Positions 10,879 to 51,248 of a stretch of DNA of 64,000 bases are shown here, piece by piece. The notes under the pieces were generated by a model, which saw only the letters and a list, made by a program, of their open reading frames with translations, had not been told where the DNA came from and searched no databases. Source of the DNA: Sipunculus nudus (lineage: Eukaryota; Annelida; Sipuncula; Golfingiida; Sipunculidae); assembly GCA_026874595.1 (NCBI GenBank), contig CM049314.1, positions 3,433,318 through 3,497,317 on the forward strand, given 5' to 3'. The position numbers and the translations under genes are program-made. The number at the start of each line of letters is the position of its first letter. Position 1 is the first letter of the stretch.

Positions 10879-10975
10879 TCATGTTTGACCTTGCTGCAGG
10901 GACCCTTGTTGCTGAGCATTTTGTTGTGAACCCTGACCGCCAGAGTTTATTTCCTGTGATGCCTGAGATGGTGGC
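10879..10975 (-). CDS. CCNC: CCNC exon 11 (C-terminal tail and stop)
   Basis: The acceptor TTCCATGCAG precedes G|CCACCATCTCAGG. It encodes PPSQASQEINSGGQGSQQNA, then QQQGSLQQGQT and TGA at 10881-10879. The tail is low-complexity and polar; the corresponding human tail is also polar but not similar in sequence. Confidence 0.9.
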
Positions 10976-12136: not shown

Positions 12137-12173
<37 letters not shown>

Positions 12174-21100: not shown

Positions 21101-21293
21101 TTAGGCAGTCCTGAAGTGTGAAAATAGATTTCTAAAAAAAATTGAGGTTTTTCCTTAATATCTCAAAGGAACGAAGTCCTATTGACCCAATTTTTGGCAT
21201 GGTAGGAGATTATGGGGACATCTAACTGTATGCCGAAATTCAGATTCGTAGGTCCAACGGTGTGGAAACGTGCCAGTGTTACGGACGGACATC

Positions 21294-21326
<33 letters not shown>

Positions 21327-28668: not shown

Positions 28669-28701
<33 letters not shown>

Positions 28702-31700: not shown

Positions 31701-34700
31701 ACAGGCAAGTGGACAGAATGGACTAATACCTTTATTTCACTTTCAAGGGAATAATGCATTTAAGTTTATATATAAGCCTATTTTTTAGCATATCCACTTT
31801 TTCCATTAAGAAGTTTTAATCTGAATCAATTTTTTTATTTACAAGTTTTATAAATTTTTAATAAAAAAAAAACTGAAAATATAATTTAAATATTAGAATT
31901 GTTGCAAAAGTTGCAATCATTATATATACAGAGTAAAAAAACTGAAAATATAAGTTAAAATATTAGAATTGTTGCAAAAGTTGCAATCATTATATATCCA
32001 GAGTGTAGCTCATATTGGGTCATATTATGCATACACATATATTTTATTATTTTAAAATCACAAATGTTTAAACTGAATTTAAAGGAAAATAATGCCACAA
32101 CATGGCATCTACAAGATTATTCCTTGAATCACAATTAAAAAAGTTTTGCACATTGAAGTTTTCAGTATATGCTTAATTTTATTCACCGAAATAAAATAAA
32201 AGATTCAGTAAATTTGATAAAATAAAACATCTTTTCAAATAAAGTATACACACTGTTGGTTGAATGAGGGACAAACAATATCATTGTGCTAATTACTATC
32301 CCAGCTTTAATTTATAACTGGAATTAATAGTCAATTTCACACCTGGTGAAGTTTTTACTCTTCTGAAGTAAGGAAATACTTATCTGATGAATATCCACAC
32401 TTTCATAGCAATACACCACTTTGTGGACACAATTAAATGTGCACTTTAATCATTGTAACCCTGGTGGTACAATACAAAATCTAAAATGTAGCATAGCCTA
32501 GAATAAGTATGAATCAAATACAGAAAATAATAACATTCATCCAGTTTATGCAACATCTGGATGGGGGGGGGGGGGAGAGGGGAGTGCAGGGCAGAGGGGA
32601 AGCCTGCTGGTAGTGGCCAAGCTGCGCCAAGGCTAGCTGCCTGGGGTGGGTTACATAATGCAAGTAAATGCTGTACTACTAGGTGGGCTAGATGTAAACA
32701 ACACTTGATATGGTGTATGAAAACTTGAACAAGTGACCCTTGGGTCATGACGCTCAGCTGCCAAGCATGACCTGTGACATCATGGACTGAGATTCACAAC
32801 TTCCAGTAAAATTTTGAAGAACCAATTTGCCAATTTGTTGAAAATTTTCTATGACAACAGAAATATATATCACCTATGTCTGGTTAAAAGTGAATTGATG
32901 GTCTGAGGAAAATGCATGATTGTTAAGCTATCAGGAACTATTCCAACAGCTTGCTTGAAACCTGTCAGTCTCAAAAGGAACACCACAAAGGGCAAATATA
33001 AGATCAAAATATATAGCAAAAATCAAGGAAATACATGCAAGAATTATTGAGAAACAGGTGCTTCTGTATGAATTTTTATTCAATGCAAGCCAACTGTACT
33101 GCACTTTTATAAATGATAGTAATATTTATTCAGAAATATTTAACCCAATCCTTTACAAGATTACATAAATATACATCCAACTGCATTCACTTTAATTGTT
33201 CTTGAGATAATATGATCAAAAGGAATTAAAAGATGGTTGCCTGGTGGCCATATTGGACTTCTGACAAGTCTGAAATCAGACAACAAACATTCTCTAAATC
33301 GGACCAAACATTAAAGAAAAATTACTGAAACTGCCCTGAAGAAAGAATTTCTAAGGTGGCTAACTGGCAGACATAATGGATTTCTGACAAGTATGACATT
33401 TGATATCCCACATTCTCCAATAAGAGACCAAACTTGGGGCAAATTATCCAGTAATAAATGCCCAAAATAATTCAAAAGGCATGTCCAGGCCCTCATATCA
33501 GATTTAATGATATGCAATTGTAAAAAGTGTAAGTCCAATATTTTTATTATCACTCTGCTTTTCAATGGGGTCAGCAGGGTAGGTAAACTGCCAAACCTGA
33601 AAGAAAAGAAATACAGAAAGCATGTTTAAGAGTCTTGAAATAAAACAAAAAGCCATCCTAAATCAAGGTACAGATCCACATATTATGAGAACAAACACTT
33701 GCTTTTATATGTGGTGATATATATTAAAATATTCAGATATCTAGGAAACTAAGTTTATTGCTAGGATTCCATAAAATAAACTGCAAAATGTTCCCATCAT
33801 CTTATAAATCAGTAGCTAAACCTAAATACTATACTCTCATAGTCTTAATGCCTGGCTGAAGCATTCTGAAAACAGTGTTTTTGTTATGAAGTAACAAGGT
33901 ACTTATCACTGAGCCTTATCACTTAATAGGCTGATACAAAAGGGAGTCATATGTCACCAGTGTCACTCACAATTACAGCCACACAGGGAGATGTACCAGC
34001 TGGAGTGGGATGGTTATATATACAAGAAAAATAGAGATGGTCTATAAAATAAGTAATTGTGAACATCCCTGACCTATGACCTTGGCCTTTTGCCCATATA
34101 TCAACTGGATTCTTTCTAAATGATGGGTAACTACTGACCAATTAAATCTGGTGTAATTACTTGGCAACCAATGGGTGAATAACTTTGACCTGCAACCTTT
34201 AACCTGCTGACCAGCTGACCCCAAAATCAATAAGTTATTTATTCAAGCAAAAAGACCCATAAATATGAAGTTTGAGTCAAACTGAGTGATGCATAGATGT
34301 GGCATATGTGAAAGACTGAAGGTTTGGGTTGAACAGTTACACTTGAAATATGCTCACAAGCATTTAGAACAATTAAATATTGTGACCTTGACCTTTGACT
34401 TTTTGACCTCAACATCAATAGGCTTCTTCCCTTATTGGTAGGTAAGCCATATATGACAGATGGAAGGTACAGATTGAAAAGTTTGCCTGAAAATGACTCC
34501 ACGCAAGAAGTGGGTGCTGTGAACTTGACCTTTGACCTCAAAATCAACAGGTCTTTTCCCCTGTTGGCAGAGAAGCGATGTCAGTGCTGGAAGGTTTGGA
34601 ATGAAAAGTCTAGCCTGAAATGTGTCCACTACCTTTTCAAAGAAGTGGATCCTGTGACCCTGACCTTTGACCTTGTGACCTCAAAATCTATAGGATTCTT

Positions 34701-37700
34701 CTCCAACTTAGTAGGTGAGCTATATGTGAAAGATCAAAGAATTGGGATGAAAGGGTTGGCTTAAAATGCATCCACAGGCTTTTCAAAGAGAAGGCCCCTG
34801 TGACCTTGACCTTTGACCTTTTGACCTAAAAAAAATTATGGTTCTTCCCCTGTTGGTAGGTGAGCTGTATGTGAAAGATGGAAGGTTTGGGATGAAAATT
34901 TTGTCTCAAAGAGTGATTTCTGGGGGGTGCAAACACACCCCATAACTTCGAGAATATAGGTCGCAGTGACCTAATTTCAAATTTGCAATGAGATCTTTTT
35001 ATAACCTCTAAGACTGCATAGGGTTCATGGCCCTAGCCCCTACGGTTATGATATGTGCCCTGCTAACGGACGGCCGGCCGGCCGGCCGGACGGACAGACA
35101 GAAGGACGCCGGACAAAGACCCATCGCTATAGCCCAGCATGACTGAAAGTCAGCTGAGCTAATAAAAACTACTGTTTTCAATCAATTCCTTTGAAATTTC
35201 AGATTTTTAAAGATTAAATACTTATGTATATATGCTGTGAAAATTAAATCAACAGTGCTTACAGGGAAAAAACGTGCCATTGCCAAAGTTGGACAAAATT
35301 TAAGGTATTGATTTTTTATTTATGCTAATAACTTGAAAAATTTGCAAAATTCAGATCTAATTTTGGGTAAACTTGATTAAATAAAGTTATATTCCTGAAA
35401 AAAAGTCTCTAGCTTCAGCAATTCTCATGTTAGGTGAGTAAATATATTTCCTGATTTTTTAAAAATTGCATTATATTTTGGCCCATAACTTCAAAATAAT
35501 ATCCAACACTGACCTAATTTTTTGTATGTTCACAGAAAATGTATGAAAGAATGTGAATACTAAATATGATCAAAAACAGATCAGTGGTTTTGATATTAGG
35601 CAGCCTTGAAGTGTAACAATGACTTTTTTATGGAAAATGGAGGTTTTTCCTTAATATCTCGAAGGAACAAAGTCCTAATGACCCAACTTTCGGTATGGTA
35701 GGAGATTTTGGGGACATCTAATGGTATGCAAAATTTTGGAATCATTGGTCCAACGGTTTCAAAACGTGCCCTGTTAACGGCCGGACGGACGATGGACAAA
35801 GGACTGCCACTATAGCTCAGATGACTTATAGTCAGCTGAGCTAAAAATGGTTATTGCACTGGAAAAGAAGAAATGGGTACTGCAGGTATAAATTCATTCA
35901 AAGCATTGCAGTGATCACCCAATGCCATACTTTATTCATTCATCACTCATTACACAGAATTAGGGTTTTTATGTTCTCTGCCCTTATACAACTGAATATG
36001 TATAAATTTACCTATGTGCATTAATAATTAGCAGGGTGCAATTCTACAATATACAAGTCTACAATATAAATGTGTTTTTCCTGACTTAGTATTTTCAGTT
36101 GATTCTGTGATGGTCTTTATATCTGAGGGGTTAAATTTTCACAATCTTCATGTTTTTAAGTAAGTTTAAATTAGTGATCTCCCCATATGAAAAACCTACA
36201 CATAATATAGCATTATTATATTAATTAATTATATAAAATATGTGCACAAAATCTTTATAATTGGACAACTGAACATTGCAAGAGTTGAAAAAATTGTTTT
36301 TAATGACATGTAATTTTAAAGATCTTACATCATTTATAATATAGCCATCTCTGAACATACAGGATCTTATTATTTATGTTAAATATCAATCATTAACCTT
36401 TTGAGTTGCTTTCCATAAAGGGACTTTTATTCTCAAAGGTTTTATTTTTGTGATTATTCCCTTCTGCAAATTCGCTAATTTGAAACCCTTGCAAACAAAA
36501 AGGCAACTACAGTAGCTGGAGTTCCAGCTGAGCTTTAACACTCACAGGTCTCATGTATCAGAAACCGATCAGTACATGTTCTTATAATTGAATAAATATT
36601 AGAATTGTCTGACTGTTTGATATTTTAATTTTTTCCTACCCTCAGCTCTTCTATAAAATATTTGTATTTTTTTTTAATCTGGCCAAATTACATGTTATAG
36701 TTACAATATTTTAGATCCACCCTTTCATCGAATTCTGTTCCACTGTCACATATTCTACTGGGGAAGATATGTGCAAATTTATTTCAGGGTCCAATCTTAT
36801 AACTATCTTTTCTGTTTATGTATGTTTTTTTTTATTTCATTAAGCAATAAAGCAAGTATGTGTACCTATCAAGGTTCTCTCCGGTAATACAGTGAAATGT
36901 AAACACATTTTATGAAGCATTTACTTACAGATGAATGTGTGTAGCTTTGGGGCTCTTACTGTAATGTTATTTATAATTTCAATGATCAAACATATTTGTC
37001 CAGGTAATATTTATCAATAATGTATCAGTTCTTGAGATCTAGCAAGTGTTAAAGGGACTCTTAAGGATACAAGTATATTATTTTTATTTAAGTAACCTTA
37101 TATAAGAAACTAAGACTTACCATTAGTTCCAATAAATTGAATTCACATTCCAGTATATGGTTTATTCTGTAGGGAAACTCTTGTGACCAAGCATACTGGA
37201 ATCTGTTTTTAACTGGAAACATGAAAGTAACAATCATTCAGCAGGTAATGGAAAAACATTCATGACATTAACTAACATGTTTTGAATTTCCATTACTCCC
37301 CGCCCCCCTTTCCCCTAACAAAGTGTATATATTTCTTTTTCATTTCCCCCAATAATTTTTCAATGCTTTCATTCTATAAACTGTGAGACTAATTCCAGAA
37401 CTATATTTTCACTTATGCTAAGTATCACATGTCTATTGCAGATTTGCAAATGAGAAACAGTGTTAAACCTGTATATATATTTGCCAAGTGAACTGTTAGT
37501 CTGTTCAGTTATAATTGAATTTTATCACTTTGCTAAATCTGTATGAATGTATATTAAAATACATGCATTACATTTGATGAAGACAACTAATTATTGGGAG
37601 GTTCAAGTTCTTTGCAAGCAGGCATTAAATGCCAATTCTTACAGATTACAATTATTAAACAAAGCTTTTACTTGTTTCCATGTTAAAAATGTTTAATGTG

Positions 37701-40700
37701 ACTCTGAGAAACCTCAGAAATTTATCCTTTTCTATGCTGCTCATACTTACCTACTGTTTGGCATGTTGAAAGCAATCTGCTGTTAGAAATGACCCCAAAT
37801 TCCTATATCAAATCACAAATTATATAACATTATGCTAAAGTGAATGTCAAAGAATGGAGTTCCTCACTAATTTTAAAATGAAATTGCATGGTGACTTTAA
37901 TAAACTGCTCAGCTGCAAAATCTTAAAATAAAAAAAAATGATATATCAACCAGCAGTTACCAAAAGAAAATTAAACATACACATTGAAAATTGCATGATT
38001 CTTCATTCTAACAAACTTGACAAAATGATTCATGATGAGATCGAAAGCTTTACAGGAAGAACTTTTTAATGATCTTTACATGCAAAGTACTTCATAGCAT
38101 TACGCATATATGTGACCTATACGTTTTGTAGTTCATCAGAAGATCTTGACCTTATGTTTTACACATTCTAAAGGAGGTTGTCTTTTTATTATTTACACGT
38201 ACCTCTACTTTGGAAGCTAGTAATACACATGTAGGGGCCATCAACAAGGGATCAACACATTTCAGTGAATTTCTGAAATACAAATCGACAAAAATCATAC
38301 AATTACCACATGCTGCAGGAGTGTAAAAATTTAAATTAAATTTCTTTCAATAAGGTTCAACAGGAACCCCCTTTCATTGCAATAATATAAACCAATTTTT
38401 TAGCCAAAAAATAATCTTGTGGTTCTTTTGTCTACAGAGTGCATATGCAGCATCAATTAACACTTAATCTTTAACACCACCACTTCATTCTCAGTCTGTG
38501 TGTTTATATGTACAGGGGATGATACTCTGCTGCATGTCAGTCTTATTACACGGTGCCTGATGAACCATTTATTTATGATGAACCCAATCAATAAGTACTA
38601 TAGGAAATATTTACTGCAGGTTTCTATATAAGATTAGTAATACTGGTAACATACACTTTGGTGTTTGTGAATAAAGTGTTCACATATAAAAAGGAGATTT
38701 AACAATTAACTACACTTTAACACATAACAATTTTTTTTTTTTGCTGTTACTTTACTTCAGGAACAGCAAGTACCAAGTCTGGTAACACAAACAAAAAGAC
38801 CACTTTCTAAGTCAGCAATTACTAGTACTCTTATTTTCAACAGGTATTCAACTATAGCATTAATTTTAATTATATTCAACACATACTTTATTAACATTAA
38901 TCATGTATGAATACAAATTCAAAGATGATTGTTTTTTACCTTTAATGGCATGTTCTAATAAAAAATTACAAACCTGGCATAAAACCTTTTGAAGTAAACT
39001 GTGGCTGTTGCAATGACCTGTTGTCTAAACTTGAGCTGTTCACCTAATGTCTGTATAACTGGAATATTAATAATTTATTTACACATATGGATGTATACAC
39101 AACAACATAGTGCTCAACAGATGATCCTACATAATTCAGTTACATTATAGAAACAGCTTGTGAAGATATACAGAATATGGAATACAATGCAGAGTAAAAC
39201 CTAGCTATAATTACCACAGAAGCATAACATAAGCAGCACAAAAGTGCATAATATGCCTGTTGTAATATGCTTTAAAGATGAGTAAAAGGTCAATTTTTGT
39301 TAAGTATTGAATTCAAGTGAGATATTTTTTTTGGTGGTAAACATTTATATAAAGTTTCATAAAAATCTACTTAATTCCTGCCAAGTTATTGCAGCCACAC
39401 CAGAAACAAGTCTGGTGACCCCTGACCATATCAAATATATGCTGATATGCCCACAATCAAACTCAAGCAAGATATTTTATTGAACAAGGCCTACATGCCT
39501 AGTGCGAACCTGTGCATTGGGGATACACCAGGTATAATGCTTCAATGCTGGACCATTACTTCTCATGTATATGAACAATGCAAGTACTAAACATTTTGAA
39601 TAAGAAACAATTACACAAACATCACTGCTAAAATTCTGGCATGGGTGCATACAACACATCTAGGGACCCATGGGTCTCAACGCTCAGTTTCTACAGGTTT
39701 CCTAACTTTGGGCAAGTAAGCCATGTGTGAGCGTTGGAAAGTTCAGGATGAAAAGTTGGTCATTATTAAAGCCTGTCTGTCTATCCAAAGCAGAATTATC
39801 ATCCATAAACTAATTTGTGAATGGATGGGCTATGTGACCTTGACCTTTGAACTATGACCCAAAAATCAAACAGAATCTCCCCTAGTGGCAGGTTAGCAAT
39901 ATCTTGAAGATGGAAGGTTTGCGATGAAAAGTTTGGCTTCAAATGCATACAAATTCCTTTTAAAGAAATGGGTCCTGTGACCTTGACCTTTGACTGTTGG
40001 ATCCCAAAATCAACATGGTTCTTACTTTAGTGGTGGGCCAATTATAAGTTAAGTTTGAAACCAGTATATCAAACTTAACTGGAATTATCATCTGGAAACT
40101 AATTTGTGTGGATGGACGGATTGACAGACAGACAGACATACAAAAAGACAGACTGACAGACAGGGTGATTAGCATAGGGCATCCACTTGTGATCAATAAA
40201 CACTCCAGGTTTTGAGACACCAGATGTAATGACAGCTGAGAAACTGACATGATTGTTGTCATTTTATAGTAAATAAATAGAAAAATATTTGTTAAAATAG
40301 GAAAACCACCACAATTCAGGAACTGACAAAACTAGTCATGGTCAATATTCAAGGCAAGATTCATGACAAACCATACATTAATTATTAAGATATTGGAGGT
40401 TTTGTATCAAATTTTTTATTATTCTGGGGGGTACTTTCAATCCCCATAGCTCGAAGGAAAAAGGTCGCAGTGACCTAATTTCAGGTTTCCAAGGAAATTT
40501 TTAATTGACCTCCCTGGATATTCTCTTAGAAGTTTCTTGCACCAGCTGTTATGATTGGTGCCCTGCTTACGGACGGCCGGACGTCCAGACGGACGAGGGA
40601 CAAAGCACCATTCCTATACCTCAGTTGACGTACAGTCAGCTGAGCTAAAAATGATTGTAGCTGGCACCACCAGTCTTGTATACAAAAAGGTTTCAGAGAT

Positions 40701-43700
40701 ATATACATATGCCCAAGTTCAGACTGATATATCAAACCCCTCCTGAGAAATAAGCAGGGACACACACTGTGCAAAAAATTATTGTAGGTGGCACCACCAG
40801 TCTTGTATACGACAAGTATACGATAATTAAAATACGATAGGTATAAATATGCCCAATTTCAGGATGATATATCAAATTCCTCTGTAGAAATAAGCAGGCA
40901 CAAAAATCACACACTGTGCAAATGTCATTGTAGGTGGTGACACCTGTCTTGTGAACGAGAAACCCATCAGACACATAGACAGGTCAAAATATTAGGCCAA
41001 TACATCAAACTTACCTTAAGTCTGATACATGGGGCTGACCACGCTTAGGTGAGAAAGGCAGTTGCCTCGAGTGAACTGTGACAAATTTGCTAGCTCAGGC
41101 TACTGCACTGAGTGAACTCATGACCTGCACCTGGCTAGACTGGGTGAACTTTTTACCTGTACCTGGCTGCACTGAGTGAACTCTTGACCTGTTGCCTAAT
41201 CTGATACAGTTGGCAGTCTGCCAAAGCTATAAACAGATTGGCTCCACATGCAGCCCTGAGGGGAATGACACCAATGAGGTGATCACATGGTGCCAATGAG
41301 GTGTTCACATGTCACCCATGAGGGGATCACATGCCTTGTGCTTGGCTGCACTGACTAAACTCTTGATCTATTGCCAAATCTGAAACAGCTGGCAGTTTCT
41401 TAACCTATGTAAATATACAGACACAATCTTGGCCTGTTAGCAAATCTGTTTATACATACTGAAAGACTTTGGCTAAAATGCTTTTTTTTCAAGCTGAAAT
41501 ATTCATAAACTTTTTATCAAAATATCTAGAAAAATAAAAGATTCAGTTCTTTCATTGTTAAAGGTCCAATAATTCTGCCAAAAATCATTCAAGTAAACTT
41601 GAACAAAGGCCACCTAAGAATAATTTTTGTGCCATGTAACAGAAGTTATAATTGAAACAATAATTTTGTAGAAGAACAGTTTTGCTTTCCTCAGTTTGGG
41701 TTCGTCATAATAATGGCCATAAGACCAACTTAAGTTTTTCTGATATTATTGAAAGAACCATGTCCTACGATAATTTTTTTGAAAAATTGAATGATTCAAC
41801 TTAACAGTTTCATCATAAACATTTTAAGCTGAAAGAGGCTAAAATTATGAGGTTTTTGCCCATAAAAAAACAGGTCAATGTAGGTGGCACATCAAAATCT
41901 GCAACTTCAAATATGAGTCATGTGACCAACATTTGCACAATACTTGGTAATGCTAGCTTCTGTCATTTCTGAAATTCTGAGATAACTATGTCAGTATGCT
42001 TACTTTGCCAAATGACCGTTCAAACTCATTTTACTCCACTAAAATTCATCAAATGCAAACATTTGAACAAACTTTGAGAGTGCTTGCCTCTGGAATCATT
42101 TATGTAAAATATTGAACAATTTGGCTGGACCGTTTACAAGAAGACTTTTAAAGGTTTTTCAGCTTTTCCCCTATAAAATCTAAGTAAATGCAGATAGCAA
42201 AAAACATAAGCTGAATCCCACAACATTTGATATGTGACAGATAGTTGCATAAAATCTGGGGATGGTAGCTCCTGCAATTCCTGAGAAATTATGGGTTGAT
42301 ATACAGATGACCAATGATGCCACAGGTGGCGCCACCAATACCTTAATTTCATATATGACTCATGTGACCAACACTGGCATAAAGTTTGGTGATGATAGCT
42401 CTGGCCGTTTCTGAGATAGTCATTTTAGTATGCTTTATTGGACAGATTACTAGGTTCAAATTTCTGTAAATTCTGCCAAAATTCACCGAACTTGAATTAT
42501 TTGAACAAACTTGAGAGAGATGGTATAAAAGATTATTTCTGTGAAATATTGAACAAATTGGCTTGACCATTTCAGAGGAGAAGATTTTTAAAGGTTTTTT
42601 AGCTTTTTCTCTATAAAATCTAAGAAAATGCAGATTTTTTTCAGATGGCTAATTTTTTGCATTAAATTTCATGATGCTTGCTCCAGTCGTTTTCGAAATA
42701 GTATGGGTTAACATATACCTGTGATTGTAAACATTGCCTGGCATAAGAGGAATAAAATCATAAATCTACATTTTTTAAAAGTTTTTAAAAAACAATCTTG
42801 TCAATATTAACCAAAGATAACCTGAAATCTAAATGTCTGGAGGCATGATGTAACGGATGCTGATAAACTGGTGCCAGGCTAGATGTATCTGCTTCACACA
42901 GCTAACATTTATGGTAAAATGACTCAATTCAATCTTTTTAATTCAGCCAAAATTCATTCTTTGGAACCATAAAAGACAATTATTATAAGAATTACTCAGG
43001 GGATTAGTCCTGTAAAATATTAAACAAATTGGCCTCAGTGACATCAGTCAAAAAACGTTTTGCAGGGATATAACTCATATGGGAAAATACAGCAAAATGG
43101 CTAAGTTAAGCTTCCCATAACTCAGCCAAAATTTACTGAACCAAAACCATTTGAACAATATTATATTATCAACATCGAAGGATAATTTATGTGTGAGATT
43201 TAAGAATTTGCCCGAGTGGTTTTTGAGAAAAGTTTTTTGTAGCCACTGAGCTAAAATGGGCTGTTATGGCATATGACTAAATTCTGCTTCCCATAACTCA
43301 GCCAAAAGTCACTGAACTGAGACCATTTGAACAAACTTCTGAAAGCAATACCCTAGGATCATTTCTCTATGATATTAAACAATTTGGCCATATGGTTTCA
43401 GAGAAGAAAGTTTTTGTAGCAGTCATTATGATACGGGCACTGATGACCCCCGTACAAAAAAGGCTGATGCAGGTGGTGCCACCAATACCTCAATTTCAGA
43501 TATGACTCATGTGACCAACATTGGCATAAAATTTGGTGATGATAGCTCCAGCCATTTCTGAGATTGTAATTGTATCCGCCAAAACAGAGTTTTGCGGATA
43601 CTATGTTTTAAGCTGCACGCCGCCGCCGCCTAGGTTTCCGGAGAACTCCTCCGTAACCGCTGGGCGGAATTTTACGAAACCCGGGATTATGTTCGGTCAC

Positions 43701-46700
43701 ATGTGAACTGCTGCGCCCCGATTTTGTTTTGACCTCTGACCTTTCCTCTGCGCTCTGCGTCCGTTTGTGCGTCTGTTTCCACACATAAACCCACATATCT
43801 CGGGAACCGTTTGACGGATCAGGAAAATTTTTTTGCACAAATGTAGCCCTTGGAGAGCTTTATAACATACACAAAAATGGTGGCGCCACCTGCAACCATG
43901 TTTGCACAGTGTCCATCTGTTCGTCTGCCTTGGGTTAAAATCACTCATATCTCTGCAGTGACTTGACTAATTCACCTGAAATTTGGCATGCGTATACATC
44001 CTGGATAGCTTTTCTGATTTTGTGACAGGTGGCGCCACCTACATTCACGTTTACGCTGCAGACATCCAAGCTCATATCTCAGGAACCGTTTGACCGATCA
44101 GGAAAATTTTTTTGCACAAATGTAGCCCTTGGAGAGCTTTATAACATACACAAAAAATGGTGGCGCCACCTGCAACCATGTTTGCACAGTGTCCATCTGT
44201 TTGTCTGCCTTGGGTTAAAATCACTCATATCTCTGCAGTGACTTGACTAATTCACCTGAAATTTGGCATGCGTATACATCCTGGATAGCTTTTCTGATTT
44301 TGTGACAGGTGGCGCCACCTACATTCACGTTTACGCTGCAGACATCCAAGCTCATATCTCGGGAACCGTTTGACCGATCAGGAAAATTTTTTTGCACAAA
44401 TGTAGCCCTTGGAGAGCTTTATAACATACACAAAAAATGGTGGCGCCACCTGCAACCATGTTTGCACAGTGTCAATCTGTTTGTCTGCCTTGGGTTAAAA
44501 TCACTCATATCTCTGCAGTGACTTGACTAATTCACCTGAAATTCGGCATGCGTATACATCCTGGATAGCTTTTCTGATTTTATGACAGGTGGCGCCACCT
44601 ACATTCACGTTTACGCTGCAGACATCCAAGCTCATATCTTGGGAACAGTTTGACCGATCAGGAAAATTCTTTTGCACAAATGTAGCCCTTGGAGAGCTTT
44701 ATAACATACGCAAAACTGGTGGCGCCACCTACAGCCATTTTTGCACAGCTCCTGTCTGTTTGTCTGCCATGGGATAAAATCACTCATATCTCAGCAGTGG
44801 TTTGACATATCTGGCTAAAATTTTGCAGGTTTATACATCCCCGACAGATCTCTTGATTTTATGACAGGGGGAGCCACCTGCATTCTAGTTTATGCAGCAG
44901 ACATCCGAGCTCATATCTTGGGAACTGTTTGACCGATTGGGCCAAAGTTTTGCATGTGTATAGTTCTCACATAGCTCTTTATCATACGCAAAACTGGTGC
45001 CGTCACCTGCAACCATTTTTGCTCAGCGTCCATCTGATTGTCTGCCTTGGGCTAAAATCACTCATATACATGTAGTGGTTTGACTTATCTGCCTTAAATT
45101 TTGCATATGTATACAACTGGGACGGCTTTCTGGATTTTGTGGTAGGGGGGGCAACCTTCATACACAATTTGGCTGCAGACATCCATGCTAATATGCAACA
45201 CTTCACTCTATTTCCCCTTGCCACTTAATCCATGCCTCACTTCACCCGTTCCACTCTGATTTAGGCAGATACACATAGTCGCTTGTCGACTACCCGTATT
45301 CTAGTTTTAGTATGCTTTTTTGGACAGATGACTAAGTTCAACTTCCTGTAACTTGGCCAAAAATCACCGAACTTAAACCATTCGAACAGACTTGAGAGAG
45401 ATTGTTCCAGGAATCATTTCTGTGAAACATTGGACAATTTGGCTGCACAGTTTGGGATAAGAAGATTTTTAAAGCTTTTTTAGCTTTTTCACTATAAAAT
45501 CTAAGAAAATGCAATTAGTCAAAACATAAGCAAAATCCGATAGAGTTTTTTAGAAGACTAATTTTTTGCATAAAATTTCGTGATGCTTACTCTTGCCATT
45601 TGCAAGATAGTATAGGTTAATGTACAGACAACTTAGACGGACGACGCCACATCATCGCATAAGCTCACAGGTTCGCTAAAAATATAAGCATTAAATTTCA
45701 TGAAAAAAAAAATCAATTTCAGGATTATCAGCTACAACAGCACCACCAAAGGCCAATGGGCAGATGTGCATAAGGCCAGATCAACCCTGGCTGTACCATT
45801 AACTGATAAACAAACTTTTTTACCTCCAAAAACACTGGGGAATTGGTTGGTGATAAGTAGTTCCCGAGACATTGCCGAATGTACTGACAATAGTGGAATG
45901 ATAAAAATTTTTATATCATTACCAAGATAAAAAAGACTGATATCATCCCAAAACTGAGATATTCTGTACTTACAATTGGCAAAGAAGATCATTATTTTCT
46001 GATATGTTTCTTCTGTCAGGAGTTTTAGGTCACTCTGTCTCTCCCTTAACAGGTCCTGTCTGTCCAGGAGCCACTGATGACTGTAAAATAAAACACATGA
46101 GAACCATTACTATCTTCTGTCATGAGTTTTAGGTCACTTTGTCTCTCCCTCAACAGGTCCTGTCTGTATAGGAGCCACTGATGACTGTAAAACAAAACAC
46201 ATGAGAACCATTTCTATCTTCTGTCAGGAGTTTTAGGTCACTCTGTCTCTCCCTCAACAGGTCCTGTCTGTCCAGGAGCCACTGATGACTGTAAAACAAA
46301 ACACATGATAACCATTACCATCTTCTGTCAGGAGTTTTAGGTCACTCTGTCTCTCCCTTAACAGGTCCTGTCTGTCCAGGAGCCACTGATGACTGTAAAA
46401 TAAAACACATGAGAACCATTACTATCTTCTGTCAGGAGTTTTAGGTCACTCTGTCTCTCCCTCAACAGGTCCTGTCTGTCCAGGAGCCACTGATGACTGT
46501 ACAACAAAACACATGATAACCATTACTATCTTCTGTCATGAGTTTTAGGTCACTTTGTCTCTCCCTCAACAGGTCCTGTCTGTCTAGGAGCCACTGATGA
46601 CTGTAAAACAAAACACATGAGAACCATTTCTATCTTCTGTCAGGAGTTTTAGGTCACTCTGTCTCTCCCTCAACAGGTCCTGTCTGTCCAGGAGCCACTG

Positions 46701-49700
46701 ATGACTGTAAAACAAAACACATGATAACCATTACCATCTTCTGTCAGGAGTTTTAGGTCACTCTGTCTTTCCCTCAACAGGTCCTGTCTGTCCAGGAGCC
46801 ACTGATGACTGTAAAACCAAAACATGATAACCATTACTATCTTCTGTCAAGAGTTTTAGGTCACTCTGTCTACCCCTCAACAGGTCCTGTCTGTCCAGGA
46901 GCCACTGATGTCTGTAAAACAAAACACATGATAACCATTACCATCTTCTGTCAGGAGTTTTAGGTCACTCTGTCTCTCCCTTAACAGGTCCTGTCTGTCC
47001 AGGAGCCACTGATGACTGTAAAATAAAACACATGAGAACCATTACTATCTTCTGTCAGGAGTTTTAGGTCACTCTGTCTCTCCCTCAACAGGTCCTGTCT
47101 GTCCAGGAGCCACTGATGACTGTACAACAAAACACATGATAACCATTACTATCTTCTGTCATGAGTTTTAGGTCACTTTGTCTCTCCCTCAACAGGTCCT
47201 GTCTGTCTAGGAGCCACTGATGACTGTAAAACAAAACACATGAGAACCATTTCTATCTTCTGTCAGGAGTTTTAGGTCACTCTGTCTCTCCCTCAACAGG
47301 TCCTGTCTGTCCAGGAGCCACTGATGACTGTAAAACAAAACACATGATAACCATTACCATCTTCTGTCAGGAGTTTTAGGTCACTCTGTCTTTCCCTCAA
47401 CAGGTCCTGTCTGTCCAGGAGCCACTGATGACTGTAAAACCAAAACATGATAACCATTACTATCTTCTGTCAAGAGTTTTAGGTCACTCTGTCTCCCCCT
47501 CAACAGGTCCTGTCTGTCCAGGAGCCACTGATGTCTGTAAAACAAAACACATGATAACCATTACCATCTTCTGTCAGGAAATTAAGGTCACTCTGTCTCT
47601 CCCTCAACAAGTCCTGTCTGTCCAGGAGCCACTGATGTCTGTAAAACAAAACACATGATAACCATTACCATCTTCTGTCAGGAAATTAAGGTCACTCTGT
47701 CTCTCCCTCAACAGGTCCTGTCTGTCAAGGAGCCACTGATGACTGTAACACAAACACATGATATTTATAACCATTACCATGATGTAATAATTTATAATGC
47801 GTCATGATTTTCTCAACCTGATGGCCTGTGGCAAGGTAGAAAAATAATGATTTTTATTACTTTCATCATTAAAAGTTCAAATTTATTAAAAAGTAGTAAT
47901 GAAAATCTATAACCTAGTCAACCACTCTGCAATAAGAATATAATAACTCATGCACTTAAAGAGGTTGTATATTAATCCCCCCCCCCTAACTATCCAGAAT
48001 CACAGATCACTCGCTGATGTATACAAGGGAAGGTATAACATCCTTAGTCATAAATTGTCTTTAAACCTGTCACCTGATGATCAGGAACATTCACCCTAAT
48101 AAACAGCACCCCACATGCTGCAAGGCAGATAGCCCTGGCCCCACTGATCTTTTTTATCTACACTGTGAGAGAGCACTAGAAGAACATTTTAATGAACAAG
48201 AGAAATGCAAGTTAACAATAAAATTATTAAATGACCAGTGAAAAGTCATATTCATAATAAAAAAAAAGATGGTTAATTTTGTTGTTGATACTGGTCAGGG
48301 AACCGGACATAATTTATGCAGACTGAACATCAGGCACTTCCCATAGCAATACACAGTCAGACCAGTGTGAGTTATTGCACAGCACTAACCATCTGACCAA
48401 GAACTTTACTTTTGGTCTGGGGTAAGCCGGCCAAAGGTATTTCATTGATAATTTTCAGCAACTGCATCAGAGTTAGGAATTTTCTTGAATTCAGAGAATC
48501 TGCATCATCCAAGAAAATTACCAAATAATGTTCAGAATTGCTGAATGTTATCTAGGATTTATTGACTACAGTAGATAAACTGGAACATTTAAATTATTTT
48601 ATTGCTTTTATTATAGTCAATAAATACCAAATATTAACATGAATAAATTTACTTTAATCATTTTGCAGTCTGAGGTGAGTTTTATATTTTATGGAAGTGT
48701 ATTGAAAAAAAAACAGAATTACTCCCAAACATATAATCATGAAAATAGTGAAAAATATATTAAAAAATTTCTGTTTCTTGTATATTTGTCTTATCTTATT
48801 ATCATTACTCATAAGGAACTCAAATAAGTACCGTACTTCAAAATACTTAATTGTGCAATCCTTGAAAATCTGTTTATACTGATTCACATCACCTTATTTT
48901 TTGTCAAGTATACTCTGATATTCTCTGTTTGTATTATCATGAATATTTTGTCATCTGATGGATTACTTACAATAAATAAAAGAAACAAAATTAAGCCAGA
49001 ATGTTTATTTTTTTAGCTGTTATCTTTCTGTAAAGAATGCTTCTCCAAAATGGGCTAGTTTTCATACAATAGCTAAATCTGAGTGGAAACTGGAAATGGT
49101 ACAGACCTCTAGTTCTGGGACAGACATATTACAGATTTACAGTGTGTCTTGAGCTTCAGATACTTCATATCTTTATTCAATTAGAGAATGCATTTCATTT
49201 ATCTAGCAGATGGAACGCATACAAACAGTCTACATAGCATTTGTTCTGAGTACTTCTGGCCCTGTGTGTTGATAGCCTGTCCTAGTGAGTGGAAAACTCA
49301 AAACTGGTTACTGGCACATGAAATTGTTCTAGCCTGCAAGGTGCATGTACTACATTTCAGCTGGGTGGGCAGGGAAGCAAGGGTTAGCAGTGATGATATA
49401 ACACTTGCATGCACATAACCGCAATATATACAGCAATATCCAGGATCCTGGATACCGCCGCATAAAAAGCTTCAGAGTAAACATGAGAACTTAAAACCCT
49501 TGTCGAAAAAAATTGTGTATAATCAAATATTGCGTTTATGACAAGAAAACTTAAGTTATCTTAAGAAGATTAGTACTTTATTTGAATGACTAAGAAATTC
49601 AGCTAAATATTTTGTTTTTGTATGTAAACAAGACTTGCTTTCAAAACTTTGCGACCCAGGCGTTGGAAATTGTCTCAAAATCTGAAAAAGAACTGCGTGA

Positions 49701-51248
49701 CCTTTCCTTGTTGAGCCAACACCACCCTTTACAACTGGTTACACAGGCAGCTGCTGGCCAGCTGTGGCTTGGGGAAAACCCAGAGCAGACATTGTTCCCT
49801 TGTATCACTGTTTATAAGGACAATATATTCTTCGAATCAACATTTAAAGTGGACAAACACTGTCTAGGTGGTATGTAATATGCGCATTTGATAGGAATAT
49901 CTTTATTTCATAATGAATACAACATTTTCAAACAAAATATAAGAATTTAATTGTCATGTGGAATGTCTCCAGTTTTCTCAAATCATCTTCTAGGGCTCTC
50001 GCACAGCGTAGCGAAGTAAGAGAGCACGGGAGCTAGGGCTAGCATGCACTAAGCTGGCTGAAACAATCACGCCGGCTCACCCAGGCACCTTGTCTCGGCC
50101 CAAGACGTGTGATTCCGATCCGCACGCTCCTCTCTGTCAACGTCTTGGGAACGACTCTTAGGAAAACGCCTCGTAAGGTTCCAAATAGGAGACCCCTTTG
50201 GAATCGTATAATTGATATTTCAAGCGGTGTCAACATAAAATAATTACCTTTTTGTTGTCTTTGGATGTTTTGTTAAACATCTGTAAAGTATTGGCACCAA
50301 AATAATGCTCAATAGCCCTACTTATCCATAATTTTGCCAAGAGCTGATGTGTTTACATAGAGAACATGCCGCCATGATTACATTAAATGACCGACAATCC
50401 TTTGCAACGGGATTTAGACTGGGAACCCACTCTGATCTTATCGCTGTTTGATCTGGAAAAAGCGGGCGATAAATCTCGGTGGCAAGTACCAGTCGATCAA
50501 TGTCCGCTCATTACAAATTCCTGTATATTGTTATGTTTAAATCATGGCGGGCTTATAAGGATTGTTAGGGATAATATTTCATTAATATATTAAGGTAAGA
50601 ACGTGGTAAAGTTGCCAGAAAGACCCATTTACTACCAAAGACACTAACAGATGCATTTTGGTGTGTATATTTAGTAATTTTAAGAGTTTTTTTGGTGCCT
50701 TCTACCAGTGTCTACCATTTCACCATTACAAGGCCTAACTGTACAGGCCATTTCCACAACTGTGATCGTATCACAGTTGTGGATCCCCAACAACCAGGCA
50801 CCCAACACACAGGGTCAGAAGTAATCAGAACAAGTGCTGCGAGACCCTTTGTAAATACTGCATCCGCTCGATAAATGAAGACAGTAGCCTGTAGCTCTAT
50901 ATGATATACATTTCACAGCTCAGAGCCACAACTGGGTGACGGACCCTGGGTCTAATATAAAATAAGGACATACCACTTAGTGTTTCTTTACTTTATATAT
51001 CGAACGGATTATCGTTTAATTACTAATCAAAAAGAAATTATCAGTGAGTACAACATCTATGAAGGTGTCGTCAAGCCTAAAATACCGGTGAATTGTCCAG
51101 TAATCAGTCCTGACGAATGACATATTTGACTGTCAACTGTCATTTGCCCACTGTAACGATCTCTCACTTCTCACGGCCAAAGTATTATTTAATATCGACA
51201 AATATGTGAATCTTACTAATGTGAACTCTGCCAGAAGTTCCCCGCCAT
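10879..51248 (-). CDS. CCNC: Cyclin C, whole gene (11 coding exons, 298 codons)
   Basis: Cyclin C is the regulatory partner of CDK8/CDK19 in the kinase module of the nuclear Mediator complex. The spliced CDS joins, in minus-strand order, 51248-51217, 46080-45974, 39058-38974, 38272-38203, 37802-37751, 37212-37121, 23865-23771, 23127-23060, 13174-13095, 12507-12389 and 10975-10879. Phases agree at every junction, and the total of 897 nt gives 298 residues plus stop. Hallmarks of animal cyclin C are present: MAGNFWQSSH at the start, QQVIATATVYFKRFYAR and LASKVEEFGVISNSR in the cyclin box, ILECEF, KIVND, QWFAELSVD and SKMPKPK. The tail after that is a Q/S/G-rich stretch of ~35 residues, making the protein somewhat longer than the ~283-residue human form. 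All introns have GT/AG ends. Introns 1, 2, 6 and 8 are 5.1, 6.9, 13.3 and 9.9 kb and hold the mobile elements; the rest are 0.4-1.4 kb. Confidence 0.96.
11253..11921. repeat. 18-bp minisatellite, about 37 copies
   Basis: The unit CAAACTGAGGGAGAGCAC (variants ...GCAA, ...GCTA) repeats without interruption inside CCNC intron 10. Two main sub-variants, ACC and AAC/TAC, occur in blocks. Because 18 is a multiple of 3 the minus strand shows a leucine-serine frame, which is an artefact of the repeat and not a gene. Confidence 0.95.
12140..12169. repeat. (CA)n microsatellite
   Basis: About 14 uninterrupted CA dinucleotides in CCNC intron 10, between exons 11 and 10. Confidence 0.95.
12389..12507 (-). 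CDS. CCNC: CCNC exon 10
   Basis: The acceptor is TTGTTGTAG and the donor AG|GTGAGT. It encodes ILEITRYILGFYELWKGYKE, then KEEISGVLSKMPKPKLAPS and two bases of an Arg codon. This matches the last helix of the second cyclin fold and the conserved SKMPKPK. Confidence 0.95.
13095..13174 (-). CDS. CCNC: CCNC exon 9
   Basis: The acceptor is TTTTTCAG and the donor CAA|GTAAGA. After completing a split Ser codon it encodes CLHMACVIKDRDKKQWFAEL, then SVDLDQ. The QWFAELSVD motif is diagnostic of cyclin C. Confidence 0.95.
14118..16764 (+). mobile_element. Family P1, copy B (2.65 kb), inserted in P2-b
   Basis: The 5' end is CAAGGGACCCATGGGTCACG followed by GCGCTCAGCTG. The 3' end is a purine/pyrimidine (ACRG)n-like stretch (16689-16715), then the hairpin AGCTCAGATGACT-TAT-AGTCAGCTGAGCT and AA. 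The core has two ~680-bp units marked by CGTGCCATGG at about 15494 and 16173. No coding capacity. The flanking unit copy at 16765-17092 gives the sequence of the site without insertion. Confidence 0.8.
16765..17068 (+). repeat. Second copy of the ~300-bp unit that flanks P1-B
   Basis: This stretch repeats 13829-14117 almost base for base: GACACATCGTCTAGA, then CTGGACACCAGGCAGAGCC, down to CAGCTTAACAGGTTCTT. It is part of the P2-b core rather than a duplication made by the insertion, because the unit also continues past the second copy. Confidence 0.7.
17235..17279. repeat. Two-step hairpin at the edge of the ORF-bearing insert
   Basis: Outer arms ACAGCGCTT (17235-17243) and AAGCGCTGT (17271-17279) pair perfectly. 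Inner arms ATAGGT and ACCTAT (17249-17254, 17260-17265) pair inside them. It stands just where P2 similarity ends, so it may mark the end of a separate mobile element that carries the 181-codon ORF. Confidence 0.5.
17632..18177 (-). CDS. 181-codon ORF with SAM-like N-terminal domain, probably mobile-element derived
   Basis: The frame is intact from ATG 18177 to a stop at 17632 and is the longest in the window. Residues 8-62 alternate hydrophobic and charged positions like a small helical SAM/death-type fold: FLWAQKHKIDALTVQLLENE, GFTSLEALELLEAVDLV, ISRGQRKLVLKAM. Residues 70-95 are an N/Q-rich linker. Residues 100-125 include GGRHSTRDDIYTRQVLEMLA. The last residues run into a short ATGACATT repeat, so the natural C-terminus may be lost. 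In my recollection similar N-terminal modules occur in many bivalve mobile-element proteins; this is inference. It lies in CCNC intron 8 on the CCNC strand, GC-richer than its surroundings. No catalytic motif is visible. Confidence 0.55.
   Translation of the reverse strand: MGDTGDSKVFLWAQKHKIDALTVQLLENEGFTSLEALELLEAVDLVKTKISRGQRKLVLKAMSTMKPNSDIGLTNQPNNDHANSQQNPSEQQPQQEGHVAGGRHSTRDDIYTRQVLEMLAMQQTECKGSCPDISSWAPKDGVGQNIIRGNLQGPSAGNPRDVDFASALGSVASSTNWIMTL
18236..21392 (+). mobile_element. Family P1, copy C (3.16 kb)
   Basis: The 5' end is CAAGGGACCCATGGGTCACG followed by GCGCTCAGCTG. The 3' end is (ACRG)n at about 21281-21340, then the hairpin AGCTCAGATGACT...AGTCAGCTGAGCT and AA. The core carries two ~670-bp units (AAGTTGGACAAAATTTAAGG at about 20100 and AAAGTTGGGCAAAATTTAAG at about 20780). 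The 5' half is shared with copy C2 at 30867. A G-run lies at about 19841-19853. No genuine ORF. Confidence 0.8.
21393..23059. other. CCNC intron 8, repeat-poor part
   Basis: I see no exon or known repeat end in these 1.7 kb. A GC-richer patch at 21830-21930 has an open antisense frame without splice sites. Confidence 0.4.
23060..23127 (-). CDS. CCNC: CCNC exon 8
   Basis: The acceptor is TTCTGTTTGCAG and the donor CTCA|GTAAGT. It encodes KIVNDSLRTDVSLMYPPYLI and AL, plus the first base of the next codon. The segment matches the cyclin C KIVNDTYRTDLCLLYPP region. Confidence 0.95.
23378..23453. repeat. 38-bp direct duplication
   Basis: The string CAGTATTATTAAATCTACAG followed by AGTTTATTGACTCATGTG occurs twice in tandem in CCNC intron 7. 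Confidence 0.85.
23771..23865 (-). CDS. CCNC: CCNC exon 7
   Basis: The acceptor is TTTTTTCCCTGTAG and the donor CATG|GTAAGA. It encodes DCCLILYHPYRPLLQYSADI, then AQDDEELLSIS and two bases of Trp, completed by exon 8. A decayed copy lies 126 bp further upstream in transcription. Confidence 0.96.
23897..23990 (-). pseudogene. Decayed tandem copy of CCNC exon 7
   Basis: The copy reads DCCLILYPPCRPLPQYSADI then AQDDEELLSIS in one open frame, so it arose from exon 7. Its acceptor is CCCTGTGG in place of CCCTGTAG, destroying the AG, and the donor GTAAGA is replaced by CACCCATTA. It also has His-to-Pro, Tyr-to-Cys and Leu-to-Pro changes in the conserved stretch. It cannot be spliced as an exon by the usual rules. 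It arose by a local ~126-bp duplication that included some intron. Confidence 0.85.
24517..25114 (+). mobile_element. Family P1, 5' part only (E), related to copy B
   Basis: It starts GGGACCCACGGCGCTCAGCTG-like with the ATGGGTC of the usual palindrome deleted, and then follows the 5' 600 bp of copy B (GAGGCACATGCTGGTTTTGT, TGTATTCATGAATGC-type text). No 3' end of its own is seen before element F begins. Confidence 0.6.
25115..27004 (+). mobile_element. Family P1, copy F, related to copy C, damaged 3' hairpin
   Basis: The 5' end is CAAAGGACCCATGGGTCACG followed by ATGCCCAAC, without the usual CTCAGCTG. The interior follows copy C from its position 18885 on. The 3' end has (ACGG)n and CTCAGATGACTTATAGTCA, then TCTAAAA: the GCTGAG half of the hairpin is lost. 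Confidence 0.65.
28749..29243 (+). mobile_element. Family P2, copy c, 3' part only
   Basis: It begins within a P2 unit (GATGCAGGTGGCGCCACCAA) directly after the 3' end of D, and ends with the intact P2 3' end AAGCTCACAGGTTCGCTAA. A 5' end is absent. Confidence 0.65.
29244..29515 (+). mobile_element. Family P1, 3' part only
   Basis: It begins inside the copy-C core (ACAGATCAGTGGTTTTGATA) immediately after the P2 3' end and runs to the full P1 3' hairpin ending AGTCAGCTGAGCTAA. It is the fourth family 3' end in 2.5 kb. Confidence 0.7.
29516..30866. other. CCNC intron 6, unassigned part
   Basis: No exon is supported. GGCGCTCAGCTG at about 29770 resembles a P1 5' end lacking its first bases. 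The minus-strand frame 30039-29842 is open for 65 codons and mildly coding-like, without recognisable homology or splice sites. Confidence 0.35.
30401..30470 (+). repeat. 5S rRNA-like stretch (pseudogene or 5S-derived SINE piece)
   Basis: The string CGGTTAGCTTTTGGATGGGT then GACCGCGTGTAC resembles the 3' half of animal 5S rRNA (GGTTAGTACTTGGATGGGAGACCGCCTGGGAATAC), including the box C region. The 5' half is not recognisable. It is either a 5S pseudogene or a fragment of a 5S-derived SINE. Confidence 0.5.
30867..35844 (+). mobile_element. Family P1, copy C2, split by P1-A2
   Basis: The 5' end is CAAGGGACCCATGGGTCACG followed by GTGCTCAGCTG, and the 3' end is AGCTCAGATGACT...AGTCAGCTGAGCTAA at 35844. 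Outside the insert (32730-35162) it runs collinear with copy C. It contains a local ~65-bp duplication at about 31870-31998 and a G-run at about 32562-32575. Confidence 0.8.
32730..35162 (+). mobile_element. Family P1, copy A2 (2.43 kb), nested in C2
   Basis: It is nearly identical to copy A1 (7511-9948) from end to end by eye, including the same pseudo-frames. The 5' end is CAAGTGACCCTTGGGTCATG and the 3' end AGTCAGCTGAGCTAA. DR1 elements TGACCTTTGACCT are at 34526-34538, 34661-34673 and 34807-34819. The host copy C2 gives the uninterrupted target when compared with copies C and F. Confidence 0.85.
35845..37120. other. CCNC intron 6, repeat-poor AT-rich part
   Basis: No repeat end, exon or RNA gene is seen between the end of P1-C2 and exon 6. 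Confidence 0.4.
37121..37212 (-). CDS. CCNC: CCNC exon 6
   Basis: The donor is ATG|GTAAGT. Of two possible acceptors, the one at TTTCCAG (37213-37215) keeps the frame and restores KNR before FQYAWSQEFPYRINHILEC, then EFNLLELM. The nearer AACAG site would lose 10 nt and break the frame. It corresponds to TRFSYAFPKEFPYR...LLELM of human cyclin C. Confidence 0.93.
37751..37802 (-). CDS. CCNC: CCNC exon 5
   Basis: The acceptor is GATATAG and the donor GTAG|GTAAGT. It encodes EFGVISNSRLLSTCQTV plus one base; the frame fits exons 4 and 6. The upstream pyrimidine tract is weak. Confidence 0.93.
38203..38272 (-). CDS. CCNC: CCNC exon 4
   Basis: The acceptor is TTGTATTTCAG and the donor GAG|GTACGT. 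It completes Arg and encodes NSLKCVDPLLMAPTCVLLAS, then KVE: the core of the first cyclin fold. Confidence 0.95.
38974..39058 (-). CDS. CCNC: CCNC exon 3
   Basis: The acceptor is TTAATATTCCAG and the donor CCAG|GTTTGT. It encodes IQTLGEQLKFRQQVIATATV, then YFKRFYA and two bases of Arg. The donor departs from GTRAGT at +3 and +4. Confidence 0.95.
39660..40648 (+). mobile_element. Family P1, copy X (0.99 kb), nested in P2-d
   Basis: The 5' end is TAGGGACCCATGGGTCTCAA followed by CGCTCAG. The 3' end is (ACGG)n at about 40570-40595, then CCTCAGTTGACG...CAGTCAGCTGAGCTAA. TGACCTTGA is found at 39835-39843 and 39978-39986 in its core. Comparison with P2-a at 5394-5430 gives the uninterrupted site. 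Confidence 0.8.
43571..45305 (-). mobile_element. Family P3, copy 2 (1.74 kb), reverse orientation, nested in P2-d
   Basis: Read on the plus strand: hairpin GTATCCGC...GCGGATAC (43572-43604), (CGC)n at about 43618-43631, 280-bp core units, and at the far end the hairpin TAGTCG-CTTGT-CGACTA (about 45277-45293) and CTAG. On the minus strand this is the same order as P3-1. It contains no coding frame that survives from unit to unit. Confidence 0.7.
43833..45180. repeat. 280-bp tandem array, about 4.5 copies
   Basis: The phrase TGCACAAATGTAGCCCTTGG recurs at about 43833, 44113, 44393 and 44673, an exact 280-bp period. The first four units are almost identical and the last one and a half are diverged. 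Each unit carries two GGTGGCGCCACC palindromes. The 70-codon plus-strand frame repeated in each unit begins in the same box and is a by-product of the repeat. Confidence 0.9.
45974..46080 (-). CDS. CCNC: CCNC exon 2
   Basis: The acceptor is TTTTATTTTACAG and the donor AATT|GTAAGT. After completing Tyr it encodes HQWLLDRQDLLRERQSDLKL, then LTEETYQKIMIFFAN. Its first 72 nt (46080-46009) are the source of the array at 46081-47755. Confidence 0.96.
46081..47755 (-). repeat. Array of 16 copies of the 5' part of CCNC exon 2 with its splice acceptor
   Basis: The unit is 104 bp: 72 nt of exon 2 (through ...CTGACAGAAGA) plus a 32-nt spacer that reads TGGTAATGGTTATCATGTG then TTTTGTTTTACAG on the minus strand. 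The box CCACTGATG (plus strand) recurs at 46175, 46279, 46383, 46487, 46591, 46695, 46799, 46902, 47006, 47110, 47214, 47318, 47422, 47525, 47629 and 47733. Every unit keeps an AG acceptor with a T-rich tract and a GTAATG at the place where the exon would continue, but none keeps the last 35 nt of exon 2. Two 103-bp units 623 bp apart reveal a second-level six-unit repeat. The array lies in intron 1 just upstream of the true exon. 104 is not a multiple of 3, so read-through would shift frame. Confidence 0.93.
47756..49638. other. CCNC intron 1, AT-rich, unassigned
   Basis: No exon, repeat end or RNA gene is seen. A short C-run lies at about 47978-47986. The overlapping open frames near 48640-48890 on both strands are AT-rich chance frames. 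Confidence 0.35.
49639..49870 (+). CDS. Candidate internal exon on the strand opposite to CCNC
   Basis: An open frame with coding-like composition runs ALEIVSKSEKELRDLSLLSQ, HHPLQLVTQAAAGQLWLGEN, PEQTLFPCITVYKDN and ends at a good donor, GTG|GTATGT (49871). The left edge is an AG in GCGACCCAG (49658) or in AAACAAG (about 49630). It sits in CCNC intron 1 in antisense. I do not recognise the family. No partner exon could be joined with confidence, so an isolated exon of an overlapping gene or a retained transposon fragment are both open. Confidence 0.35.
49871..51216. other. CCNC intron 1, GC-richer part with short open frames
   Basis: Two stretches (about 50045-50240 and 50376-50500) are GC-richer than the rest, with open frames on both strands, for example MTDNPLQRDLDWEPTLILSL from 50387. 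None has a full splice context that I can defend. They may be remnants of a mobile element or of an antisense gene. Confidence 0.3.
50753..50783. repeat. Perfect 14-bp inverted repeat with 3-nt loop
   Basis: TCCACAACTGTGAT (50753-50766) is followed by CGT and then its exact complement ATCACAGTTGTGGA (50770-50783). It would form a very stable hairpin or cruciform. No T-run follows, and no known element end is nearby. Confidence 0.9.
51217..51248 (-). CDS. CCNC: CCNC exon 1 (start codon)
   Basis: ATG at 51248-51246 in the context GAAAATGG (A at -3, G at +4). It encodes MAGNFWQSSH and two bases of Tyr, then the donor TTA|GTAAGA. The match to the invariant cyclin C N-terminus fixes the start. 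Confidence 0.95.

Follow-up and report, generated by a model that had tools for sequence, protein, structure and literature searches.

How does a cell choose the right splice acceptor when nearly the same acceptor is offered seventeen times in a row? The question is raised by the gene for cyclin C (CCNC) in the 64,000-nucleotide stretch of DNA presented above (the window), where a tandem array made of the end of intron 1 and the beginning of exon 2 stands directly in front of the authentic exon 2. Here, we describe this array, which is most likely a recently expanded minisatellite, and we ask how correct splicing can coexist with it and whether it is put to any use. It probably belongs to the boundary-spanning arrays known from amphioxus as "mirage" minisatellites, and has probably been tolerated as a side product of duplication in a genome rich in it, rather than serving as a regulatory device. 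All coordinates are positions in the window unless a contig is named, and the gene lies on the minus strand. The features in question are as follows.

10879..51248, minus strand: CCNC gene, 11 coding exons, 298 amino acids, the sole place in the genome that matches the protein.
51217..51248, minus strand: coding part of CCNC exon 1 (MAGNFWQSSH plus TA), donor at 51216.
46009..47763, minus strand: tandem array (probable mirage) of 17 units with a 104-bp period, from Tandem Repeats Finder (TRF) and from a split into units by their acceptors.
46081..47742, minus strand: sixteen decoy units, AG kept in 16/16.
47742, 47638, 47534, 47431, 47327, 47223, 47119, 47015, minus strand: decoy acceptor/exon starts of units 1 to 8, from the unit split.
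46911, 46808, 46704, 46600, 46496, 46392, 46288, 46184, minus strand: decoy starts of units 9 to 16, from the unit split.
45974..46080, minus strand: true exon 2 (107 nt), made of unit 17 and a unique 35-nt tail, donor GTAAGT at 45973.

TRF returned a single array (46009-47763; period 104, 16.9 copies, 94% matches, score 3111), far beyond chance. Each unit consists of the final 31 nt of intron 1 and the initial 72 nt of CCNC exon 2, and the spacing between units is 104 nt in 14 of 16 cases and 103 nt in the other two. The AG of the acceptor is present in all 17 units, and the bases after it always read TCATC or ACATC. Unit 17 alone has the exon tail and the donor GTAAGT, and exon base 73 is an A in the true exon and a T in the decoys. 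The preliminary description of this locus had proposed such an array, and its coordinates and numbers hold, including the exon-1 donor at 51216 (exon 1 ends at 51217 and the donor G follows) and the 72 nt shared and 35 nt missing with respect to the 107-nt exon 2. Two of its details were drawn too broadly. It gave TTTTACAG in every unit, from which units 7 and 13 (TTGTACAG) and unit 1 (GTGTTACAG) deviate, and it placed a GTAATG just past the break in units 2-17, which is right for 13 of the 16 decoys and wrong for units 5, 11 and 15, where GAAATG is found. The GTAATGG was not made by the break: it is original intron sequence, present also ahead of unit 1. If joined from exon 1, units 2, 3 and 9 would meet an immediate stop (TA/A).

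The gene behind the array is intact. GT and AG bound all ten introns and the 298-residue frame is unbroken. Against solved structures, the best matches of the protein are cyclin C chains (E about 7e-129); within the best 120 of 824 matches to cyclin C, the best-ranked named one is from Acanthosepion, at 75% identity, and the best overall reaches 78%; none of the named ones is a cephalochordate. In a cyclin C tree, the window protein joins only two other proteins, and its placement among spiralians and others is not resolved. For an intronless HSP70 of the genome, the first named match of ordinary size is from an oyster (78%), and the best 120 of 7,992 matches include no named cephalochordate. 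We therefore take the animal to be probably a mollusc or other spiralian, and not amphioxus. The genome searched comprises 1.43 Gb in 153 contigs, and the protein and probe counts cover the candidates scored by the search. All 26 matches to the CCNC protein fall inside this gene, and all nine matches to a 220-bp array probe fall inside this array; no second CCNC place that could represent a retrocopy of the spliced mRNA was seen among the genome matches. Since every protein match lies in one gene, correct CCNC splicing must occur often enough.

What, then, marks the right acceptor? Units 8, 14 and 17 are identical over the intron end and the exon head, and the acceptor region itself therefore cannot decide. 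The choice must thus rest on the sequence beyond it, namely the exon tail and the donor that follows at 107 nt. The preliminary description had allowed that the true site could be set by the donor, an alternative that the identity of units 8, 14 and 17 favours; distance to the donor alone is insufficient, since six decoys, 8 and 14 included, have a donor-like site of their own. All our acceptor and donor scores come from a crude weight matrix. By this measure the six decoy sites reach 0.64, the true exon-2 donor 1.64, the exon-1 donor -0.91 and the other seven decoy GTAATG sites -3.21. The margin of the true donor is narrow by such a crude score, and the sequence of the exon tail may be of equal importance.

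From these comparisons of sequence we infer that the mark of the right acceptor lies in the sequence behind it, as exon definition would have it. Most probably the spliceosome would define exon 2 as a whole, its tail and its donor (GTAAGT, 107 nt on) committing it to the last acceptor. In genes with long introns, the sites closest across the exon are favoured, according to a transcriptome-wide study (PMC9225289). An occasional transcript joining a decoy to the true donor would stop early and then presumably undergo nonsense-mediated decay. Indeed, any of the 16 decoys, when combined with the true exon-2 donor, leads to a stop at codon 11, 51 or 57. Two earlier claims stand in this respect: seventeen near-equal acceptors do precede the exon-2 donor, as the unit split bears out, and use of any decoy with that donor would damage the mRNA by an early stop.

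Some other ways of handling the decoys were considered. Recursive (ratchet) splicing was rejected, as no GT donor directly follows any of the 17 AGs, and so were close tandem acceptors of the NAGNAG type, the spacing being 103-104 nt and not a few nucleotides. Masking of the decoys by RNA structure found no support in the fold of two units (z = -1.08; the fold was equalled or bettered in 29 of 200 shuffles).

The internal order of the units suggests how the array grew, and one further feature is needed here.

46320..47565, minus strand: higher-order repeat of two 623-bp blocks, units 3-8 (47565-46943) and units 9-14 (46942-46320).

The two blocks differ at 1 of 623 positions. Units 15-16 match units 11-12 at 207 of 208 positions, units 15, 16 and 17 resembling units 11, 12 and 14, respectively. 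Moreover, unit 17, that is, the true exon head with the intron end before it, shows no difference from units 8 and 14 in 103 nt. Taken together, the near-identity of the blocks and that of unit 17 with units 8 and 14 suggest that the last expansions involved six-unit blocks that included the true exon head. This indicates that the head of the true coding exon is itself a member of the array, apparently exchangeable with its intronic copies. At the far end, units 1 and 2 read AAT TTC (N F) where the remaining units read AAA CTC (K L), and the K at that site is nearly invariant among 18 aligned cyclin C proteins; the change is as expected if this end is the oldest part of the array and has decayed. 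We propose that an ancestral tandem duplication took the end of intron 1 along with 72 nt from the start of exon 2, and that unequal exchange then enlarged the array, latest in 6-unit blocks together with the true exon head, the additional copies remaining within intron 1. With units 1, 4 and 10 left out, the variable columns number 5 of 31 in the intron part and 12 of 72 in the exon part. The retention of the AG in 16/16 decoys is unremarkable, because about five sixths of the columns are invariant. Among the distinct variants in the exon part, 8 of 15 are silent (P=0.012 under a uniform model, and up to 0.11 with transitions favoured).

Arrays of this kind have already been named. Mirage minisatellites spanning an exon boundary are described in amphioxus Adh, globin, TnC and PGBD5 genes (PMC3087553, PMC3902484). 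The first of these reports treats the globin genes BflGb9 and BflGb6, the latter with two haplotypes of 6 and 3 units, and cites Adh3 (PMC3087553); the second brings in PGBD5 and refers to Adh and troponin C (PMC3902484). AG and GT signals are found in many, not all, of the amphioxus units, and reverse-transcription PCR together with the Adh3 data suggests that regular splicing is undisturbed (PMC3087553). The CCNC array resembles these cases in its tandem units over an intron end and exon start, in splice signals kept in many units (here the AG in 16/16 decoys), in an authentic exon that adjoins the array and continues from its last unit within an intact gene, in a unit length within 10-160 bp and in its near-identical unit blocks. 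For the length instability expected of mirages, the two 623-bp blocks of this one assembly offer indirect support at most.

It differs from them in several respects. The genome is probably not that of a cephalochordate, and the array has 17 units, where the two haplotypes of BflGb6 have 6 and 3. The block duplication at CCNC extends to the true exon head, whereas the units at the cluster boundary of BflGb6 are reported to be left out of homogenisation (PMC3087553). Furthermore, one gene here holds two mirages, as described below, and its splicing is predicted from the sequence. Intron gain from mirages by tandem duplication has been proposed (PMC3087553), and intron gain of this type is a topic listed also for PMC4974935 and PMC2809761; as in the proposed model, the duplication at CCNC carries splice signals, but the gene keeps its original intron and no new intron is evident. 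A limited literature search gave no boundary arrays outside amphioxus that we noticed, and the available text on amphioxus huntingtin mentions tandem repeats and names no boundary arrays (PMC2206037).

Is the CCNC array a singular accident? When all 11 CCNC exons, with 60 nt of flank on each side, were compared with the window, a second case was found.

23771..24006, minus strand: second CCNC mirage, exon 7 (23865-23771) with an upstream 109-bp partial copy (24006-23898), 91.7% identical.

In this partial copy the acceptor AG has become GG and is dead, and the exon-7 donor is absent after the copy. Elsewhere in the genome, boundary-spanning arrays were found in 3 of 57 myosin exons, these being the exons that were whole in the stretches fetched from 75 myosin-head matches, with exon limits read by eye. 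At C9:5933472-5933938, six decoys and the true acceptor precede an exon encoding ERNYHIFY, in units of mostly about 80 bp; the acceptor pattern used there required CAG, and the seven starts lie 58 to 86 nt apart, which leaves no room for a missed unit. At C5:8167675-8167865 the exon end is repeated with its probable donor, and at C8:6313735-6313890 the exon end is repeated with a T for G before the GT of the second copy; both are probable duplications on the donor side. The preliminary description had called exon-derived minisatellites that keep a splice site unusual; they form a class that already has a name and that recurs in this genome.

In all, nine myosin exons had a second match: besides the three boundary arrays, there were four dispersed alternative exons, one weak copy that we left unclassified (C2:44854097) and one case of nearby intronic arrays. 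These four alternative exons, at C2:44849337-44852248, are versions of one myosin-head exon, lie about 0.7-1.2 kb apart and resemble mutually exclusive exons. The kinesin exons examined (the best 20 of 126 matches) gave weak second matches in 3 of 20 cases, two of them inverted and weak and one from an intronic array, and a boundary-spanning array in none. Exons that were not chosen for their arrays thus carry one in 3 of 77 cases, numbers that are small. This intronic array lies at C13:59088209-59089197; its acceptor-like unit of 17 bp (ATCTTCTACAGACCTTG) is repeated about 24 times, and it ends about 20 nt before the true acceptor of the kinesin exon. CCNC has an acceptor-like array in its last intron, about 280 nt upstream of its last exon.

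11255..11922, minus strand: 18-bp minisatellite of 37 copies in the last CCNC intron, unit CTCTCCCTCAG, a pyrimidine tract followed by CAG, acceptor-like and not exon-derived.

Are exon boundaries targeted, or does duplication merely meet them now and then? Tandem arrays make up 15% of the CCNC gene. Of its 20 arrays, merged by hand from the TRF output, two overlap a boundary, where random placement gives 1.4 on average (P=0.42), and no enrichment at boundaries is therefore seen in this gene. At the myosin loci, the 3 exons of 57 (5.3%) compare with 10.7% of random 160-nt segments overlapping arrays of period at least 30 (P=0.13). These rates are as expected of a genome rich in tandem repeats, with some arrays perhaps removed by selection, and there is no sign that boundaries are targeted.

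Several observations weigh against taking the array as a tolerated mirage whose decoys are passed over by exon definition. By the weight matrix, 9 of the 16 decoy acceptors outscore the true one, two (units 8 and 14) equal it and five fall below it. Decoys 1, 2, 4, 8, 10 and 14 have ATG/GTAATG 74 nt downstream of their acceptor, which are the donor-like sites scored above. Of the 13 micro-exons of 74 nt that end at a decoy GTAATG, 10 would leave the frame open if one of them replaced exon 2, giving a protein of 287 residues. The excess of silent variants hints that some units may once have served as a real exon, a hint that depends on the transition bias assumed. No boundary-spanning array was found in the 20 kinesin exons. 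Finally, in the study on site choice, the upstream preference for 3' sites is significantly reduced in the long/long class, and the 3'-site preference that it describes falls short of the clean choice needed among 17 sites (PMC9225289). These points bear on rival explanations in different ways.

The best of these rivals is the splicing throttle suggested in the preliminary description, in which the decoys would compete with the true site, part of the transcripts would stop early and decay, and the length of the array would set the output of cyclin C, a part of the Mediator kinase module. It can draw on sixteen intact acceptors, of which 11 score no lower than the true one and six are followed by a plausible donor, and on the early stop that follows from every decoy joined to the true donor, immediate (TA/A) in units 2, 3 and 9. 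However, the invariance of the AG carries little weight where most unit columns do not vary in any case, the acceptor of the exon-7 decoy is dead, arrays meet boundaries at about the random rate, and the amphioxus mirages are reported to splice normally (PMC3087553, PMC3902484). We consider such a throttle unlikely.

A decoy head and its GTAATG could also be used as a 74-nt exon, either in place of exon 2, which would cost cyclin C 11 residues, or on the way to a new intron, a gain route proposed for the amphioxus globins (PMC3087553). The necessary signals exist in 13 of 16 decoys, six of them at 0.64 against the true 1.64, and ten of the 13 would leave an open 287-residue frame. Yet seven of the 13 donors score just -3.21, and the remaining three replacements of exon 2 stop after residue 10. 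When one to six of the thirteen micro-exons were added before exon 2, the frame was kept in none of the 4,095 combinations. Moreover, the 287-residue product would be without 11 residues of the exon-2 tail, with residues among them that are conserved in the cyclin C alignment, and the decoys are not complete exons, as mutually exclusive exons would be, each being without 35 nt of exon 2. This use of the decoys appears very unlikely.

That the number or order of the units, or the array itself, is an artefact of assembly is very unlikely: blocks 3-8 and 9-14, with their 1 difference in 623, are such as an assembler could duplicate or collapse, but units 1, 2 and 16 carry private variants, units 3-8 are of types that can be told apart, the contig has the size of a chromosome (C9, 79.8 Mb) and boundary arrays occur in other genes of the same assembly.

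The reading of the array as a tolerated mirage is thus the one that we retain as the most likely, and the proposal of a throttle finds no support, in view of the unremarkable AG retention, the random-rate overlap with boundaries and the reportedly undisturbed splicing of the amphioxus arrays.

Two further observations concern the surroundings of the gene and the assembly. From 57713 to 64000 the window is occupied by an 80-bp satellite that continues past the window end and shows a longer, higher-order repeat of about 1738 bp (59249, 60987, 62725). A search for COX1 gave 10 long bacterial-looking frames and one short fragment; small contigs such as C60-C62, C72, C74, C89 and C123 carry long intronless COX1-like frames, several of them with HSP70/DnaK-like ones, which suggests bacterial sequence, from symbionts or contamination.

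A wider reading is also conceivable, for which we find slightly less to say than against it. In this spiralian-like genome, duplication across exon boundaries may be a genome-wide habit touching perhaps several percent of exons, that is, thousands of sites, the decoys being ignored by exon definition and the exon heads being rewritten by unequal exchange. Coding exons would then evolve in concert with their intronic decoys, as the identity of the true CCNC head with decoys 8 and 14 would illustrate.

Laboratory pre-mRNAs with tandemly duplicated splice sites have been used to study splice-site choice. The CCNC array is like them in that identical acceptors compete in a row, and unlike them in being natural, 17-fold and placed in a conserved gene of which no second copy was found. 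The locus can thus be regarded as a duplicated-splice-site experiment set up by nature, in which one transcript contains three acceptor regions (units 8, 14 and 17) that agree in all of 103 nt; the first two are followed at 74 nt by a donor-like site, weaker than the true donor that follows the third at 107 nt. Junction counts at this array could measure how strict the choice of a site is and what marks it. Together with the other boundary arrays of the genome, it suggests that mirages, a known but little-studied kind of minisatellite, are not peculiar to amphioxus and have apparently arisen, and recurred, in a new lineage.

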